From: an uncultured Prevotellaceae bacterium
GTDB taxonomy: Bacteria > Bacteroidota > Bacteroidia > Bacteroidales > Bacteroidaceae
NCBI GenBank assembly: GCA_900316445.1
Contig: ONCZ01000004.1
Span: 1-64,000 of the forward strand
Direction: 5' to 3'
DNA length: 64,000 bases
The translations under genes and the position numbers were made by a program. Within the stretch, counting starts at the first letter, position 1. Each line of letters opens with the position of its first letter. Positions 4,624-59,384 of the stretch are shown one piece after another. The notes under the pieces were generated by a model. The model searched no databases and was not told the origin of the DNA. It saw only the letters and a list, made by a program, of their open reading frames with translations.

Positions 4624-5526
4624 CTATTTCTCTATCAGGCAGACGGCGTAGGCGGAGATGCCTTCCTCGCGGCCTGTGAAGCCGAGTTTCTCGGTGGTTG
4701 TGGCCTTGATGGAGATGTCATCCTCGTCGCAGCCGCAGATCTGGGCCATACAGGCCTTCATGGCCGGGATGTGGGGATTCATCTTGGGACGCTCGGCACA
4801 GATGGTGGCATCGATGTTCACCAGATGATAGCCCTTTGTGGCAATCAGGGCGATGGTGTCGCGGAGGATGATCTTGCTATCCATGCCGTCGGTCTCGGCG
4901 GATGTATCAGGGAAATGGTAGCCGATATCACGCATATTTGCGGCTCCCAACAGGGCATCGCAGACGGCATGCAGCAGCACGTCGGCATCGCTGTGGCCCA
5001 AGAGGCCTTTACTGTGTTCGATCTTAATGCCGCCCATCCAGAGGTCGCGGCCTTCTACTAACTGATGGACATCGAAGCCAAAGCCAACTCGGAACCCACC
5101 CCCAGCCCCTCCCAAAGGGAGGGGAGACTGATTAGACTGAGCATTCAAACTGATTTCCTCCAATGTATCGGAAATTTCCTCGAGGACAGTATCGATGTCG
5201 TTAAGAACCGATTCATTGGTAAATCGCAACACAACATATCCCATCTGATTCAAATATTCCGTACGCTCCAGATCCATTTCTTGTTGTTCTTCTGCCAAAT
5301 GGTACCCACCATCAATCTCGATAATCAGACGTTCCTTAAGGCAAACAAAATCTGGAATATATCCAAATACTGGATGCTGACGACGAAAATGTACACCCAT
5401 CTTATCTCCGGATAGAAAATTCCATAGTGCAGATTCTGCCTCCGTAGGATTGCGTCTCATCTCTCGTGCCTTATCCTGTAATAATTGATAAGTAGCAGAG
5501 TCGGTAGTCTCATATTTATATTTCAT
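4624..5526 (-). CDS. ispF: DUF559 endonuclease-like domain fused to IspF (MECDP synthase)
   Basis: 300 residues in one open frame. Residues ~10-125 are a complete DUF559 domain (PD-(D/E)XK-like): FRRQHPVFGYIPDFVC, LIIEIDGGYH, then RTEYLNQMGYVVLRF. Residues ~132-147 (SPLPLGGAGGGF) are translated from a palindromic repeat at 5095-5126. From ~148 to 300 is a near full-length IspF, the enzyme forming 2-C-methyl-D-erythritol 2,4-cyclodiphosphate in the MEP isoprenoid pathway: FGFDVHQL with metal ligands Asp152 and His154, LLGHSDADVLLH, GYHFPDT and KATTTEKLGFTG. Free IspF normally starts a few residues before GxGxDVH; here no ATG, GTG or TTG is available at that point, so translation must come through DUF559. 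The gene follows porV, an arrangement I recall from other Bacteroidales with a free ispF. Confidence 0.9.
   Translation of the reverse strand: MKYKYETTDSATYQLLQDKAREMRRNPTEAESALWNFLSGDKMGVHFRRQHPVFGYIPDFVCLKERLIIEIDGGYHLAEEQQEMDLERTEYLNQMGYVVLRFTNESVLNDIDTVLEEISDTLEEISLNAQSNQSPLPLGGAGGGFRVGFGFDVHQLVEGRDLWMGGIKIEHSKGLLGHSDADVLLHAVCDALLGAANMRDIGYHFPDTSAETDGMDSKIILRDTIALIATKGYHLVNIDATICAERPKMNPHIPAMKACMAQICGCDEDDISIKATTTEKLGFTGREEGISAYAVCLIEK
5095..5126. repeat. Family A palindromic repeat, inner copy (inside the ispF fusion)
   Basis: 32 bp beginning CCCACCCCCAGCCCCTCCC and closing with GGGAGGGGAG, so CCCCTCCC pairs with GGGAGGGG. It is an inverted copy of 5561-5592 with one substitution. On the minus strand it is translated as SPLPLGGAGGG, linking the DUF559 and IspF domains. 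Confidence 0.9.
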
Positions 5527-5560
5527 ACTCTATAATTATCTATCCTCAAATGTAATCAAA

Positions 5561-5592
5561 CTCCCCTCCCTTGGGGAGGGGCTGGGGGTGGG
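5561..5592. repeat. Family A palindromic repeat, outer copy
   Basis: The reverse complement of 5095-5126 with a single difference. It ends 2 bp before the porV stop codon and 34 bp upstream of the DUF559 start, so the two copies bracket the DUF559 ORF as terminal inverted repeats spanning 5095-5592. Confidence 0.9.
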
Positions 5593-5594
5593 TC

Positions 5595-6785
5595 TTACCT
5601 GCGGAACAGATCCTTAATGCCATCCATATCGAAGGCGAGGGTGAAACGGAGGGTCTGGTCGAGCGGATTACTCTTGGCCGTGGAGATGACATAACCCACA
5701 TCAAGGGAGAATACACTCATACGGAAACCACCACCAACGGTGAAGTACTTCATATTGCCTTTCGACTCAGACTGATGGTGATAACCGGCACGGAGGGAGA
5801 ACTGGTCGTGATAGACATATTCTGCACCTAAACTCCAGGTGATCTCTTCTAGTTCCTCCTTGAAGCCGTCAGGGGCGTCGCCAAAACTCTTGAAGATACC
5901 ACTGATAGAACTCACATCGCTGTACTCACGACGCACACGGTCCTGATAGTCGCTGTTCGACTCGCCCTCCTCCTGACGAGGCACGGTGGGCACCAACAGC
6001 TTGTTGGCATCGGCAGTAATGCTGAAACGGTTATACTCATCGACAGGCACCATCAGCGAGGCACCCAGACGGAGGTTTGCCGGCAGGAACTGGCTCTCGT
6101 CGTCACCATAGAAGGAGATCTTAGAACCGATGTTAGACATATTCATACCCAAGCCCAGCTGACACTCACGACTGCCAAGCATAATGTAGTTGTTGTAGTA
6201 CAATGCCAAGTCGGCTGCGAAGGCAGAGGCGGGTTTCGAGTCCTCGCTGTAGTCATAGCGCAGGTCGCTGTGTATCCATCGGATGGCAGCAGCCAGGGAG
6301 AACTTCTCACTAAGCATCATCGAATAGGCCACGTCGAGCGCCATCTCGTAGGGCTTCACACTCATACCGTCGTCGGCAAACACCTCACCGAGGGAGAAAT
6401 AGCGCACCGATCCGGAGATGGCGGAGTAGTCGCCGATACGGTAGTAGCCTGCCACATAGGCAAGGTCGATATCGCTGACGAGCTGACGGAGCCACGGCGT
6501 GTAGTTCAGGGCGATGCCAGAACGGCTGATGCAGAAGGGGTACTTGGCGGGGTTCCAGTACTGGGAGTTCACATCCGGGTCTGTGGCCGCACCGATGTCA
6601 CCCATAGAGGCACCACGGGCATCAGGGGCGATGGTCTGCGAGATGACAGCATGCTCAACGGGATTGAACATCTGAACCTTGTCTTCGTCCTGAGCCAGCG
6701 CTACGCTAAATGATAAATGATAAATGATAAATGATAAAGCTATCACCCTCATCATCATACGTCCTTTATCTTCTTTTATCTTCAT
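5595..6785 (-). CDS. porV: Type IX secretion outer-membrane protein PorV (LptO)
   Basis: 396 residues if started at the first ATG; a start at the MMMR cluster (6758) gives a more normal signal peptide ending SVALAQ. The mature protein begins MFNPVEHAVISQTIAPDARGASMGDIGAAT followed by SQYWNPAKY, the hallmark of the PorV/PG27 branch of FadL-like beta-barrels. PorV carries T9SS cargo to the PorU sortase at the cell surface. It lies downstream of porU and upstream of ispF. Oddity: the hydrophobic core of the signal peptide is encoded by a 7-bp tandem repeat (6707-6739). Confidence 0.92.
   Translation of the reverse strand: MKIKEDKGRMMMRVIALSFIIYHLSFSVALAQDEDKVQMFNPVEHAVISQTIAPDARGASMGDIGAATDPDVNSQYWNPAKYPFCISRSGIALNYTPWLRQLVSDIDLAYVAGYYRIGDYSAISGSVRYFSLGEVFADDGMSVKPYEMALDVAYSMMLSEKFSLAAAIRWIHSDLRYDYSEDSKPASAFAADLALYYNNYIMLGSRECQLGLGMNMSNIGSKISFYGDDESQFLPANLRLGASLMVPVDEYNRFSITADANKLLVPTVPRQEEGESNSDYQDRVRREYSDVSSISGIFKSFGDAPDGFKEELEEITWSLGAEYVYHDQFSLRAGYHHQSESKGNMKYFTVGGGFRMSVFSLDVGYVISTAKSNPLDQTLRFTLAFDMDGIKDLFRR
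6707..6739. repeat. 7-bp tandem repeat (TAAATGA) inside the porV signal peptide
   Basis: Four units of TAAATGA plus a partial fifth. Read on the minus strand it gives LSFIIYHLSFS, the hydrophobic core of the PorV leader. Because 7 is not a multiple of 3, any change in copy number would shift the frame. Confidence 0.85.
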
Positions 6786-16538: not shown

Positions 16539-17820
16539 GGATAATCAGGGTGGTGAGGTTATCGGCAGGGAAAAGTTCTCCAGCCACTTGTTGTATATCC
16601 TCTGCCGTAACGGCGTCGATCTTTCTGAAGAGTTTATCGAGGTCGCGCTCATACCCGTGGTGAAGGAAGTTCCTGCCGAAGTCGAGGGCAAACTGCTCAC
16701 GATTGTCACAAGCGATGGCAATTTGTCCTTTCAGTTGTCGTTTGGCAGCCATCAACTGCGAGGCAGAGAGCGGACGAAGCATCACACGATCCAATTCCTT
16801 TCTTACAAGTCGCAGGCAACGGTTGATGTCGTGATGGTCACAACCGAAATAGACACTCCAGACGCCTGTATCAGAATAGGCAGCCATCGAACTCTCCACC
16901 GTATAGACCAGTCCGTGCCGCTCTCGCAGCGAGAGGTTCAGACGGGCATTCATACCTGGACCACCTATTATATTATTTAATAGGTATAGTGTCATACGCT
17001 TCGGATCGTCATAACGATAGGCCTGGGTGCCGAGCATCACGTGGGCTTGGTGAGTGCCGCGATTGAGAGTGATTGTTTTTCGAGGAAGGAGGAAAGAGGA
17101 AGGAGGAAGGAGATTACCTTGGAGGGTGTTTTCCCCTCCTGAGTAGGAGGGGTTAGGGGTGGTCTGATCCGCCTCATCACTATTCTCATTCCTCATTCCT
17201 CCTTCCTCCTTCCTCGAATTACTCACCAGTCGCTTAAAATCCACATCCCCATACACAAAGAACACCGCATTCTCAGGACGGTAATGACGTCTGACGAAGC
17301 GGAGGGCATCGGCTGTCTTAAAAGAGCGAACCCTGTCAGACGTACCGAGGATATTATGTCCAAGGGGATGTCCCTGGAAAAGGATATTCTCAAACTCGTC
17401 GTAGACCAACTCGGCAGGCGAATCATTATAACTCTCGATTTCATCGCAAATCACCTCCACCTCCTTATCGATTTCCTGCTGTGGATACTGACTGTGGAAG
17501 ACGATATCAGTCAGGAGTCCCACGGCCTTGGCAAAATGCTCTTTGGTTACAGCAGCATAGAACACGGTGTCCTCCTTGTTGGTAAAGGCATTCAACTCAC
17601 CGCCCACTCGCTCCAGGTCATTGATTACCTGCAAGGCACTGCGCTGCTCCGTGCCCTTAAAGGTCATATGTTCACAGAAATGCGCCAGTCCTTCCTCCCC
17701 AGGCTGTTCATCACGGGAGCCTACAGCCAAGTCATAGCCGCACCACACCACCTGCGATGCCGACGGCAGATGGATGATTCGCAGCCCATTATCAAGTGTA
17801 TATGTATTATATTTCGTCAT
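16534..17820 (-). CDS. M16-family metallopeptidase with repeat insertion
   Basis: 428 residues from MTKYNTY at 17820; the ATG at 17832 lies inside the -7 box. The zinc motif HFCEH (residues 47-51, HxxEH) follows AVGSRDEQPGEEGLA, and the downstream Glu lies in ICDEIESYNDSPAE. The length matches a single-unit bacterial M16B enzyme, which usually processes peptides in the cytoplasm or periplasm; no signal peptide is seen. Between FVYGDVDFKRLVSN and KTITLNRG lies a ~45-residue Ser/Pro/Glu-rich insert translated from nested repeats at 17081-17217. It falls between the two structural halves, where a loop may tolerate it. Confidence 0.9.
   Translation of the reverse strand: MTKYNTYTLDNGLRIIHLPSASQVVWCGYDLAVGSRDEQPGEEGLAHFCEHMTFKGTEQRSALQVINDLERVGGELNAFTNKEDTVFYAAVTKEHFAKAVGLLTDIVFHSQYPQQEIDKEVEVICDEIESYNDSPAELVYDEFENILFQGHPLGHNILGTSDRVRSFKTADALRFVRRHYRPENAVFFVYGDVDFKRLVSNSRKEEGGMRNENSDEADQTTPNPSYSGGENTLQGNLLPPSSFLLPRKTITLNRGTHQAHVMLGTQAYRYDDPKRMTLYLLNNIIGGPGMNARLNLSLRERHGLVYTVESSMAAYSDTGVWSVYFGCDHHDINRCLRLVRKELDRVMLRPLSASQLMAAKRQLKGQIAIACDNREQFALDFGRNFLHHGYERDLDKLFRKIDAVTAEDIQQVAGELFPADNLTTLIIQ
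17081..17217. repeat. Nested repeat insertion inside the M16 gene
   Basis: The outer arms GAGGAAGGAGGAAAGAGG (from 17082) and CCTCCTTCCTCCTTCCTCG (ending about 17216) are inverted copies. Between them, at 17131-17170, sits a family A element with palindrome CCCCTCCTGAGTAGGAGGGG and tail TTAGGGGTGGTCTGATCC. The whole is translated in frame, including DQTTPNPSYSGGE from the inner element and LLPPSSFLLPRK from one arm. Confidence 0.85.
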
Positions 17821-57176: not shown

Positions 57177-59384
57177 TTAAAATCTGACCAATTCAGAGCC
57201 CTGCAGCCTCCTGTCAGCACTCTCCACCTGAACCACATAAACACCGGAAAGGACGGAGGGAAGCGCCACAAAGGTAATTGTTTCCCCTCCTGAGTAGGAG
57301 GGGCTAGGGGTGGTCTGATCCACCACACACCTCCCTGAAAGGTTATATACCCTGACGCGAACAGGCCCCGTGACCATTCGGTCAAACACCAGCCTCAGCC
57401 CTCCTTCCACAGGAAACACCTGTACACCTTTCGGATGATGCAGGCTGATATCCTCAATGCCCGACAGCGAGAGTACCTCCAATAGTCCGCGATAGACGTC
57501 AATCTCACCATATCCATAGACATCATTCGGATAGTCATACTTCTCTTCCGGATGCCGGCAGCTACGTTGCATCACCTCTCTGACCTCCTGAGGCGTCAGG
57601 TCTGGTTTGGCCTGTAGCCAGAGGGCTATGGCACCCGCCACTACAGGTGTCGACATCGACGTACCCGTTTGCACACCCCAAGGATAGCGCTCTCCTTGGT
57701 AATCCGAATACGCCACCACCTCCTTCTCCGGATGGAAAAGCGAACTGTAGGAGGCCACCACATTCGTACCAGGCGCAACCACATCGGGCTTCATCAAGTC
57801 GTTCATCGCCGGACCTGTCGAAGAGTAATAACCTATCTTACCCGTCTCCGTCTCCTTACTGCCATTAACCACCTCACCTTGTGCATTCCGGATGCTAAGC
57901 CGATGGGTCGTGGCACCAACGCAGAGAACGCCAGGGAAACAACCCGGCGCAAAGACATTCCGCCCTTTGACAGCATCCCTCCAGCGGTCGTCGGCATCAT
58001 GATCCTGAAAGGCATTGGAAGAACTGCCATAGACCTCTATCTTCCCCTGACCTTGCACCACCACGGCCAATGGCGGCAACAGGTTCAAGGTGGTGTCCGC
58101 TTCCAAGAGCAGTTGCCAGATATCATGGTCGGCGAAGCGTGAACTGTCGCGATAGGCCACAACGGTCAGCGAATCCTCGCCATACGCTATCTTCCTCCTA
58201 ATAATCGTATCTATCGGCACTTCGGCTGTCTCAAAGGCAATCGTATCGCTGGGCATCCCTCGTTTCTCGTTCCCATACCCATAAACAACGAGCCGCGTCT
58301 CTCCCTCGCTTTTGATCCGATAGAGCGCGCCCTTCTTAAAGCACCTGACGAAACTCCCGGCCTCCGCCTGGTCTTCCTTCTTCTCGAAATAGGTCATCTC
58401 CACGCCCTCATTGCCGGCAGAAGCCACAATGATACGGCCAGGACCCGTCAACTGTTCGAGGGTAACGGCATAGAGGCTGTCTTCGTCGTCAAGATAGGGA
58501 GGATACCCTTCGCTGAACGACACCACACAAGGCTTTCCCTGCGCTTCGGCATAGTCGAAACAGTATTTGAACCCCAGGGCATCGGTAGCTGTGGTATATT
58601 TATAGCGATCAGCGGAATCCACATATTCAACATTGGCACTAATAGCATTACCCACCACGCAGAGGTCACTGCCCCAGGCGATGCCACGATACGGCGTGTC
58701 ATATCCACTGCCGGCAGCAATGCCCATGGTATGCGTGCCATGCGTCTTAGTGGGGGCATCGGTAGAGTGCATGATAGCACTGATGGCTTCAGCGCCTACA
58801 TAGTCCCGCCCTACAGGCAGCGTACTGCCTATCGTGTCACGCGACAACTGATCCCAGAAAGCTCTGATCCGCGATTGTCCTGTTGTATTGTCAAGAAAAT
58901 TGGGATGTGTCAAATCAAAGCCAATGTCCACCACGCCGACCACAACGCCTTCGCCGGTATATGCCTGATGAGATGGCGATGACTCATAGACAGGCAATGC
59001 CTGAACGACAGCGGCTGTAGTATCGACGCACAGACTGGTGGACTGGTTGGCTTCAATTCGGGTGACTGCCGGCTCCTTAGCCAGCGCACCCAATTCTGCC
59101 AGTGGGATCGTGGCGATGCAGATATCGTCCCATTGTGCCCGTTTCTGGCAGTTATGTTTTTTGAACACGTCATCAGCCTCTTCAGGACTGATGCAGACGA
59201 AGGCTGTCATACTCCTCCCCTCAAAGTATCCTACTGACTCCTGACTCCTGACTCCTTCTCTCCTTACTCCTTCTTCCGCTGCCTGACGCACCAGCCGCGA
59301 CATCTTCCGGTAATCGGCCTGCTGTGCAACACTCGTAAGTGCCACCCACACAGCTATCAGCAACCATACCTGCCTCCTCATCAT
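57177..59384 (-). CDS. S8 subtilisin-like protease with type IX sorting domain
   Basis: 735 residues from ATGATGAGG at 59384; the frame opens three codons earlier with TTG. The signal peptide ends SVAQQ. Catalytic residues: Asp153 (VVGVVDIGFD), His215 (KTHGTHTMG) and Ser576 (QTGTSMSTPVVAG). The C-terminal ~85 residues (VQVFPVEGGLRL, VRVYNLSGRCVV, LSGVYVVQVES) form a T9SS type A sorting domain, so PorU/PorV likely secrete it. Two repeats are translated in frame: a GACTCCT element near the N-terminus (GVRREGVRSQES) and a family A element inside the sorting domain (DQTTPSPSYSGGE). Confidence 0.92.
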   Translation of the reverse strand: MMRRQVWLLIAVWVALTSVAQQADYRKMSRLVRQAAEEGVRREGVRSQESVGYFEGRSMTAFVCISPEEADDVFKKHNCQKRAQWDDICIATIPLAELGALAKEPAVTRIEANQSTSLCVDTTAAVVQALPVYESSPSHQAYTGEGVVVGVVDIGFDLTHPNFLDNTTGQSRIRAFWDQLSRDTIGSTLPVGRDYVGAEAISAIMHSTDAPTKTHGTHTMGIAAGSGYDTPYRGIAWGSDLCVVGNAISANVEYVDSADRYKYTTATDALGFKYCFDYAEAQGKPCVVSFSEGYPPYLDDEDSLYAVTLEQLTGPGRIIVASAGNEGVEMTYFEKKEDQAEAGSFVRCFKKGALYRIKSEGETRLVVYGYGNEKRGMPSDTIAFETAEVPIDTIIRRKIAYGEDSLTVVAYRDSSRFADHDIWQLLLEADTTLNLLPPLAVVVQGQGKIEVYGSSSNAFQDHDADDRWRDAVKGRNVFAPGCFPGVLCVGATTHRLSIRNAQGEVVNGSKETETGKIGYYSSTGPAMNDLMKPDVVAPGTNVVASYSSLFHPEKEVVAYSDYQGERYPWGVQTGTSMSTPVVAGAIALWLQAKPDLTPQEVREVMQRSCRHPEEKYDYPNDVYGYGEIDVYRGLLEVLSLSGIEDISLHHPKGVQVFPVEGGLRLVFDRMVTGPVRVRVYNLSGRCVVDQTTPSPSYSGGETITFVALPSVLSGVYVVQVESADRRLQGSELVRF
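57282..57321. repeat. Family A repeat inside the S8 sorting domain
   Basis: CCCCTCCTGAGTAGGAGGGG with tail CTAGGGGTGGTCTGATCC, nearly the same as the copy in the M16 gene. It lies in the loop between two strands of the C-terminal sorting domain. Confidence 0.9.
59232..59274. repeat. GACTCCT tandem repeat inside the S8 gene
   Basis: CTACTGACTCCTGACTCCTG then ACTCCTTCTCTCCTTACTCC; related to 51204-51233 in topA. Confidence 0.75.

Follow-up and report, generated by a model that had tools for sequence, protein, structure and literature searches.

How does a bacterium start the translation of IspF when its ispF gene has no ATG of its own and is read in frame from a nuclease-like domain? The question arises from a stretch of 64,000 nucleotides of an uncultured Prevotellaceae bacterium (the window), whose source genome we call G000. 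On its minus strand, a porV-like gene (5595-6785, a name taken from a preliminary description of this DNA) is followed by an open reading frame of 300 amino acids without internal stops (4624-5526, stop codon at 4624-4626), at the place where free relatives have an ATG-initiated ispF.

A DUF559-IspF fusion bracketed by palindromes

Pfam scans identify two domains in this frame. DUF559 (PF04480), a Vsr/EDxHD-like nuclease domain, spans residues 17-122 of the fusion (5161-5478, minus strand; profile positions 4-108 of 109, E-value 1.2e-34), and YgbB/IspF (PF02542) spans residues 145-299 (4630-5094, minus strand; the full profile, 1-155 of 155, E-value 2.9e-69). Between them lies a palindromic repeat of 41 nt (5094-5134, minus strand), translated as the inter-domain linker SPLPLGGAGGG. 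Its inverted partner, also of 41 nt (5553-5593, plus strand), adjoins the porV stop codon, and the two are 93% complementary. With up to 3 mismatches, the pattern of this repeat is matched twice in the window and never in 100 shuffles. The unbroken frame running from DUF559 through a translated palindromic repeat into IspF, as first described, is thus confirmed.

Both domains seem to be preserved. The DVH, HSDAD, and TTTE motifs of IspF, which we take to be its metal and substrate residues, are invariant across 29 aligned fusions, and the fused protein would be a working IspF. The preliminary description had pointed to a second intact ispF as the finding that would make the fusion dispensable. 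We found no such copy in G000, nor in the isolate Prevotella pectinovora P4-76, which also carries an ispF fusion. Since the assembly of G000 (4.04 Mb, 137 contigs) is 93% complete, another copy might lie in the missing part. IspH was found in G000, in G053, and in P. pectinovora, as expected for the MEP pathway.

In DUF559, residues D59, E70, D72, and H76, presumably the catalytic ones, are invariant in the fusions, and judging from these positions the nuclease does not look dead; it may cleave DNA. Profile searches against the PDB matched 3hrl (E-value 3e-26) and 3r3p, titled mobile intron protein (E-value 5.5e-6), which we assume to be I-Bth0305I. I-Bth0305I is the example of the EDxHD family given in PMC3943268. 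A Caulobacter DUF559 protein, VsrA, triggers the SOS response and has been proposed to be a mismatch repair enzyme (PMC12907096). A role in anti-phage defence was considered, but the PADLOC matches were only weak (best E-value 0.001). In the open-licence literature, we found no paper tying DUF559 to palindromes or mobility.

Filled and empty porV-ispF junctions

Relatives in which porV and ispF lack the insertion, a comparison suggested at the outset, do exist. In these free relatives, porV is followed by a spacer, whose length is often between 0 and a few tens of nt but greater in some of them, then by an ATG and IspF. In all 20 fused genomes of the genus, no more than ~15 nt separate the porV stop from the left palindrome, the right palindrome extends up to the first conserved codons of IspF, and the start ATG is gone. 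The filled and empty junctions thus support the earlier proposal that a repeat-bracketed DUF559 unit was inserted between porV and ispF and took over the start. As both the original spacer and the ATG are missing, this was not a clean insertion. Ten filled/empty pairs inspected by eye showed no recognisable target-site duplication, the spacer being replaced.

In six genomes (L153, L157, L159, L160, L161, and L167), IspF starts with a short ATG-led stretch followed by a translated palindrome, without DUF559, which suggests that palindromes alone are able to take over the start. We also observed a second translated palindrome within IspF, before GLLGHSDAD, in at least 7 of 28 fused loci (L196, L197, L201, L202, L204, L206, and L207). 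Elsewhere in G000, an S4-domain gene and a D-Ala-D-Ala ligase gene open with a translated palindrome (L179 and L190), so ispF would not be the sole gene with a captured start.

The motif TAnnTTTG is a Bacteroides-type promoter. Within 60 nt upstream of DUF559 it was found in 1 of 20 loci, with 0.4 expected, and we reject the presence of such a promoter inside the element.

Candidate start codons before IspF

The IspF part of the window fusion begins with FRVGFGFDVHQL. It had been described as having no ATG, GTG, or TTG at its start; this holds for ATG, but in-frame TTG codons lie 7, 18, and 23 codons ahead of the F of IspF. The nearest one (5113-5115, minus strand) is inside the right repeat, at the loop of a predicted hairpin; the RNA fold of the junction as a whole is nothing unusual (z 0.25). 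Hence, the related claim that IspF is translated only as a fusion is likely, but the TTG in the repeat could start a free IspF.

After removal of identical copies, 29 distinct fusions were available for a count of start codons. Within 30 codons before the GxGxDVH motif of IspF, an ATG is present in only 2 of them and absent in 27, and 9 have no ATG, GTG, or TTG at all. When the interval is restricted to 12 codons, 17 have at least one of these three codons and 12 have none. For comparison, 54 of the 63 free ispF loci have an ATG at most 12 codons before the motif; of the 9 that do not, 6 are the ispF with a translated palindrome mentioned above. Among the matches listed, the 20 fused genomes of the genus all lack an ATG in the 30 codons preceding the motif.

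Distribution of the fusion

We searched 398 genomes of the genus with an alignment of 17 fusions and found the full porV-DUF559-ispF fusion in 20 of them among the matches listed (E-value at most 1.4e-147, no stops). The next match (E-value 5e-103) covers IspF only. These counts rule out a private oddity of one genome. They agree with a first survey of 59 relatives of the same genus, where ispF lay in a frame longer than 300 codons in 4 other genomes, all four being porV-DUF559-ispF fusions. The hosts of fused ispF are some gut and rumen Prevotella, and they are scattered over the host tree, resulting in a patchy distribution. Two genomes, G155 and G354, have two IspF matches each among the matches listed.

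A scan with the DUF559 part alone, using one genome per species in 84,980 species, returned 182 relatives; ispF fusions account for 28 of the best 80 of these 182. Carriers include cultured bacteria, namely P. pectinovora P4-76 (ispF), Segatella baroniae and S. maculosa (both gmk-like), and Parafilimonas terrae (LeuRS).

DUF559 in other host proteins

According to Pfam scans, the in-frame partners of DUF559 include guanylate kinase, a SpoU methylase, and an ArgB-like amino acid kinase. Inspection by eye added further proteins, which we take to be ABC-F, helicase, MazG, GNAT, and RNase H proteins. In a DegT aminotransferase, a GH31 enzyme, and chorismate synthase, DUF559 lies inside one Pfam domain that resumes afterwards, and in a CCA-type enzyme it sits between domains. 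In the leucyl-tRNA synthetase (LeuRS) of Parafilimonas, it falls, relative to the Thermus enzyme 1h3n, between positions 477 and 487, and the sequence on either side of it aligns to 1h3n. In-frame copies occur in Chitinophagaceae and other Bacteroidetes at two sites of LeuRS (L248, L257, L266, L267, and L270) and in chorismate synthase (L251, L253, and L269).

These loci were selected for long frames or close DUF559 kinship: of 40 loci, 38 were picked for long open frames from DUF559 matches and 2 (G138 and G353) from IspF matches. Hence, they prove that such insertions exist, not how frequent they are. Our impression is that several insertions lie beside conserved motifs (the gmk P-loop, SFHATK of DegT, VEFVGAR of the CCA enzyme, the IspF start), which would suit the targets of homing. 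We reject an intein, as Pfam scans of the window fusion and of 9 further ones list no Hint or intein domain.

Element ends and repeat populations

We then asked how general the bracketing by inverted repeats is among the DUF559 copies. With identical copies removed, 61 of 70 distinct copies have flank-to-flank inverted repeats with a score of at least 14 (median 26.5), leaving 9 without matched ends. At the same threshold, the controls gave 147 of 1050 for swapped partners, 0 of 350 for shuffles, and 0 of 46 for the flanks of free ispF. The letters of the ends vary among copies yet mostly agree within one copy. In a second set, taken from the best 80 of the 182 relatives, 66 of 78 copies have matched ends; the two sets have some genomes in common.

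The repeat of the window is present in 22 copies in G000, which make up the DUF559 unit, eight inverted doublets (99-157 nt), and four singles, whereas the same pattern read backwards gives 0. Five of the eight doublets have a length divisible by three. These five are read in frame, in a pseudouridine synthase, in an Mfd-type protein, in an AMP-binding enzyme, and across the junctions of CarA with CarB and of CobB with CobQ; the remaining three of the eight are at gene boundaries. Relatives carry other letters, or less, in the loops and linkers that hold these doublets, which indicates that the sites are tolerant. CarA-CarB (L182, contig C114 of G000) and CobB-CobQ (L180, contig C111) are single frames joined via a palindromic doublet. 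In relatives, CarAB is sometimes joined with another linker and sometimes encoded by separate genes.

G000 has a second DUF559 gene (contig C51) with a different end repeat, found in 80 copies in the genome, 59 of them exact, and 0 for the backwards pattern. Each of the two DUF559 genes thus matches the letters of its own repeat population. Among 29 sampled copies of the second repeat, 14 are in frames open for at least 40 amino acids on both sides, a count of frames that leaves homology aside. Two copies of the second repeat lie in the window itself (17133-17153 and 57284-57304), in frame (DQTTPxPSYSGGE) within minus-strand frames of 441 and 738 codons.

To compare genomes with and without DUF559, we picked 44 genomes by DUF559 status before searching them with a pattern modelled on the window palindrome. 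The positive set had a completeness of at least 90% and a DUF559 match below 1e-25; the weak carriers G007, G012, G017, and G020 were omitted, and G000 was searched but not counted. Such palindromes are present in 20 of 22 genomes with DUF559 and in 4 of 22 without it, among the matches listed (Fisher p 2e-6, kinship being ignored). G053 has at least 135 palindrome matches, and its single DUF559 gene among the matches listed is the ispF fusion.

Trees and exchange between species

In a quick tree of IspF and PorV (72 of 83 rows kept, duplicates and loci without PorV dropped), fused and free loci alternate, with 13 changes and close filled/empty pairs such as G059/G264. The trees of DUF559 itself were built from 124 columns, with identical copies removed. 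The first one (73 rows) groups the copies by insertion site, with 10 changes against 31.5 in shuffled data (0 of 200 as low). In this tree, the ispF copies are near one clade (2 changes), those of trmH and argB are nested within their group, and the two CCA copies, inserted at different positions, stay apart. With 125 rows, a wider but poorly resolved tree has 23 changes against 56.4 shuffled, and 14 against 31.4 once the catch-all of free copies is taken out (0 of 200 as low in both cases). Clustering by site is seen for ispF (28 rows, 5 changes) and gmk (15 rows, 7 changes), with helicase and ABC-F one each. It is partial for one LeuRS site (2/3) and absent for AroC (3/3 changes), the other LeuRS site (2/2), and CCA (2/2, at different positions). 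Since AroC and one LeuRS site have no site lineage, part of the pattern may reflect hot spots or mere tolerance.

The DUF559 alignment of 20 fusions rejects the host topology (p-AU 0.0028). Judged by sequence identity, the clearest exchange of the element between species is that of G370 and G357, with 97% identity in DUF559, 85% in IspF, and 81% in PorV. Along the locus, identity is 0.92-1.00 in the element, 0.88-0.92 in the first ~120 nt of ispF, and 0.90-0.91 at the end of porV, and lower beyond. Across all fused pairs, DUF559 is more alike than PorV in 33 of 190, or in 14 of 171 when the faulty PorV row of L034 (dN above 2) is left out. The synonymous sites of DUF559 are saturated, and 1 of 190 pairs was usable for dN/dS (0.054).

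A proposed mobile nuclease element read through as part of host proteins

We lean towards explaining the locus by a Vsr/EDxHD-like mobile nuclease element that enters coding sequences and is tolerated by read-through rather than splicing. The unit at 5094-5593 would be such an element of ~0.5 kb, made of one DUF559 gene between two inverted palindromes able to form hairpins. It would have entered the porV-ispF junction, replaced the start codon of ispF, and supplied its own ATG, and IspF would be made as a C-terminal domain behind the Pro/Gly/Ser-rich linker encoded by the right palindrome, with no internal initiation expected in the window fusion. The ispF and gmk copies may represent site-specific lineages spreading between species in the manner of homing endonucleases, and the palindromes might also spread alone, as short doublets and singles, like REPINs, with DUF559 as their putative mover. 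As the unit would not be spliced, insertions would persist where read-through leaves the host protein working, and being welded to a vital gene would make the loss of the element costly. A broader proposal, which we regard as possible if somewhat doubtful, is that these units form a class of mobile elements living inside proteins across Bacteroidota, without introns or inteins. Such elements would combine a homing-type DUF559 with linker-encoding palindromic ends, occupy the starts and loops of vital enzymes, move coding palindromes, and be secured by capturing the start codon of an essential gene.

Other explanations have to be weighed against this element. Something else may move palindromes into tolerant spots, DUF559 being a repair nuclease of the Vsr type that became enclosed by a pair of them. 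The proposed mismatch repair role of Caulobacter VsrA (PMC12907096) fits this idea, as do the palindromes of the 4 genomes in 22 that have no DUF559 among the matches listed, the lack of a single DUF559 lineage at AroC and at one LeuRS site, and the location of doublets in loops that are variable anyway. However, it does not account well for the match of two DUF559 genes of G000 with different repeat populations, for palindromes tracking DUF559 across 44 genomes, or for the clustering of ispF and gmk copies by site, and we consider it rather unlikely. A little less plausible in our view is that translation also begins at a TTG or GTG within the right palindrome or close to it, in which case free IspF is made and the fusion is a by-product. 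This is in line with the three TTG codons of the window, at 7, 18, and 23 codons before IspF, and with the 17 of 29 fusions having an ATG, GTG, or TTG within 12 codons of the IspF motif. Yet, 12 of 29 lack any candidate at this distance and 9 lack one within 30 codons, an ATG occurs in 2 only, and the nearest TTG of the window sits at the loop of a predicted hairpin (in a fold that is ordinary as a whole, z 0.25).

It seems improbable that a single ancient fusion was passed on vertically, without any mobility, and lost on many occasions. The ispF copies of DUF559 do lie near one clade (2 changes in the 73-row tree), and changes on a tree cannot separate gain from loss. But every loss would need to bring back an ATG, the DUF559 alignment rejects the host topology, the copies at trmH and argB fall within the group of ispF copies, and the element of G370 and G357 is far more alike than its flanks. 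Most carriers are metagenome-assembled, which could raise the suspicion of an assembly or binning artefact; given that the cultured strains P. pectinovora P4-76, S. baroniae, S. maculosa, and P. terrae carry such fusions, we give it hardly any credit.

Relation to known systems

RAYTs are transposases of the Y1/HUH type. The elements described here resemble REPIN-RAYT systems by their many-copy inverted palindromic doublets and by a likely mover gene flanked by the same palindromes (PMC3116915), but the flanked gene is a DUF559 nuclease, not a RAYT. Furthermore, REPs are extragenic, with 14 of 1067 16-mers overlapping genes (PMC3116915), whereas the palindromes studied here are partly coding (14 of 29 sampled in open frames) and the DUF559 gene is fused to host genes. 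The palindromic elements of Rickettsia are also found in frame in protein genes (PMC10969869), as ours are in housekeeping genes. The passage of PMC10969869 on them names no mover, while the palindromes of our Bacteroidota hosts bracket a nuclease gene. If confirmed, the element would supply a candidate mover for coding palindromes.

The likeness to EDxHD homing endonucleases lies in the match to 3r3p (E-value 5.5e-6, at the level of profiles), the patchy presence, the site-wise lineages at ispF and gmk (though not at AroC, one LeuRS site, and CCA), and the vital host genes. Introns and inteins give homing endonucleases access to conserved genes through self-splicing (PMC3943268), whereas the nuclease described here stays within the host protein. 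In other words, host proteins seem to tolerate a homing-related nuclease in their finished form, whereas introns and inteins splice theirs out (PMC3943268). Vital enzymes (IspF, guanylate kinase, leucyl-tRNA synthetase, chorismate synthase) would then illustrate how selfish DNA gives rise to new domain fusions, and the existence of a cultured carrier, P. pectinovora P4-76, makes this directly testable. A DUF559 fusion with an unrelated enzyme partner, the DUF559-SPOUT protein bll5746 of Bradyrhizobium, has been termed surprising (PMC1829167). It differs in that its DUF559 is C-terminal and alphaproteobacterial, and the passage of PMC1829167 on it mentions neither repeats nor mobility. Finally, the DUF559 units share with TIR transposons (IS) the presence of terminal inverted repeats.
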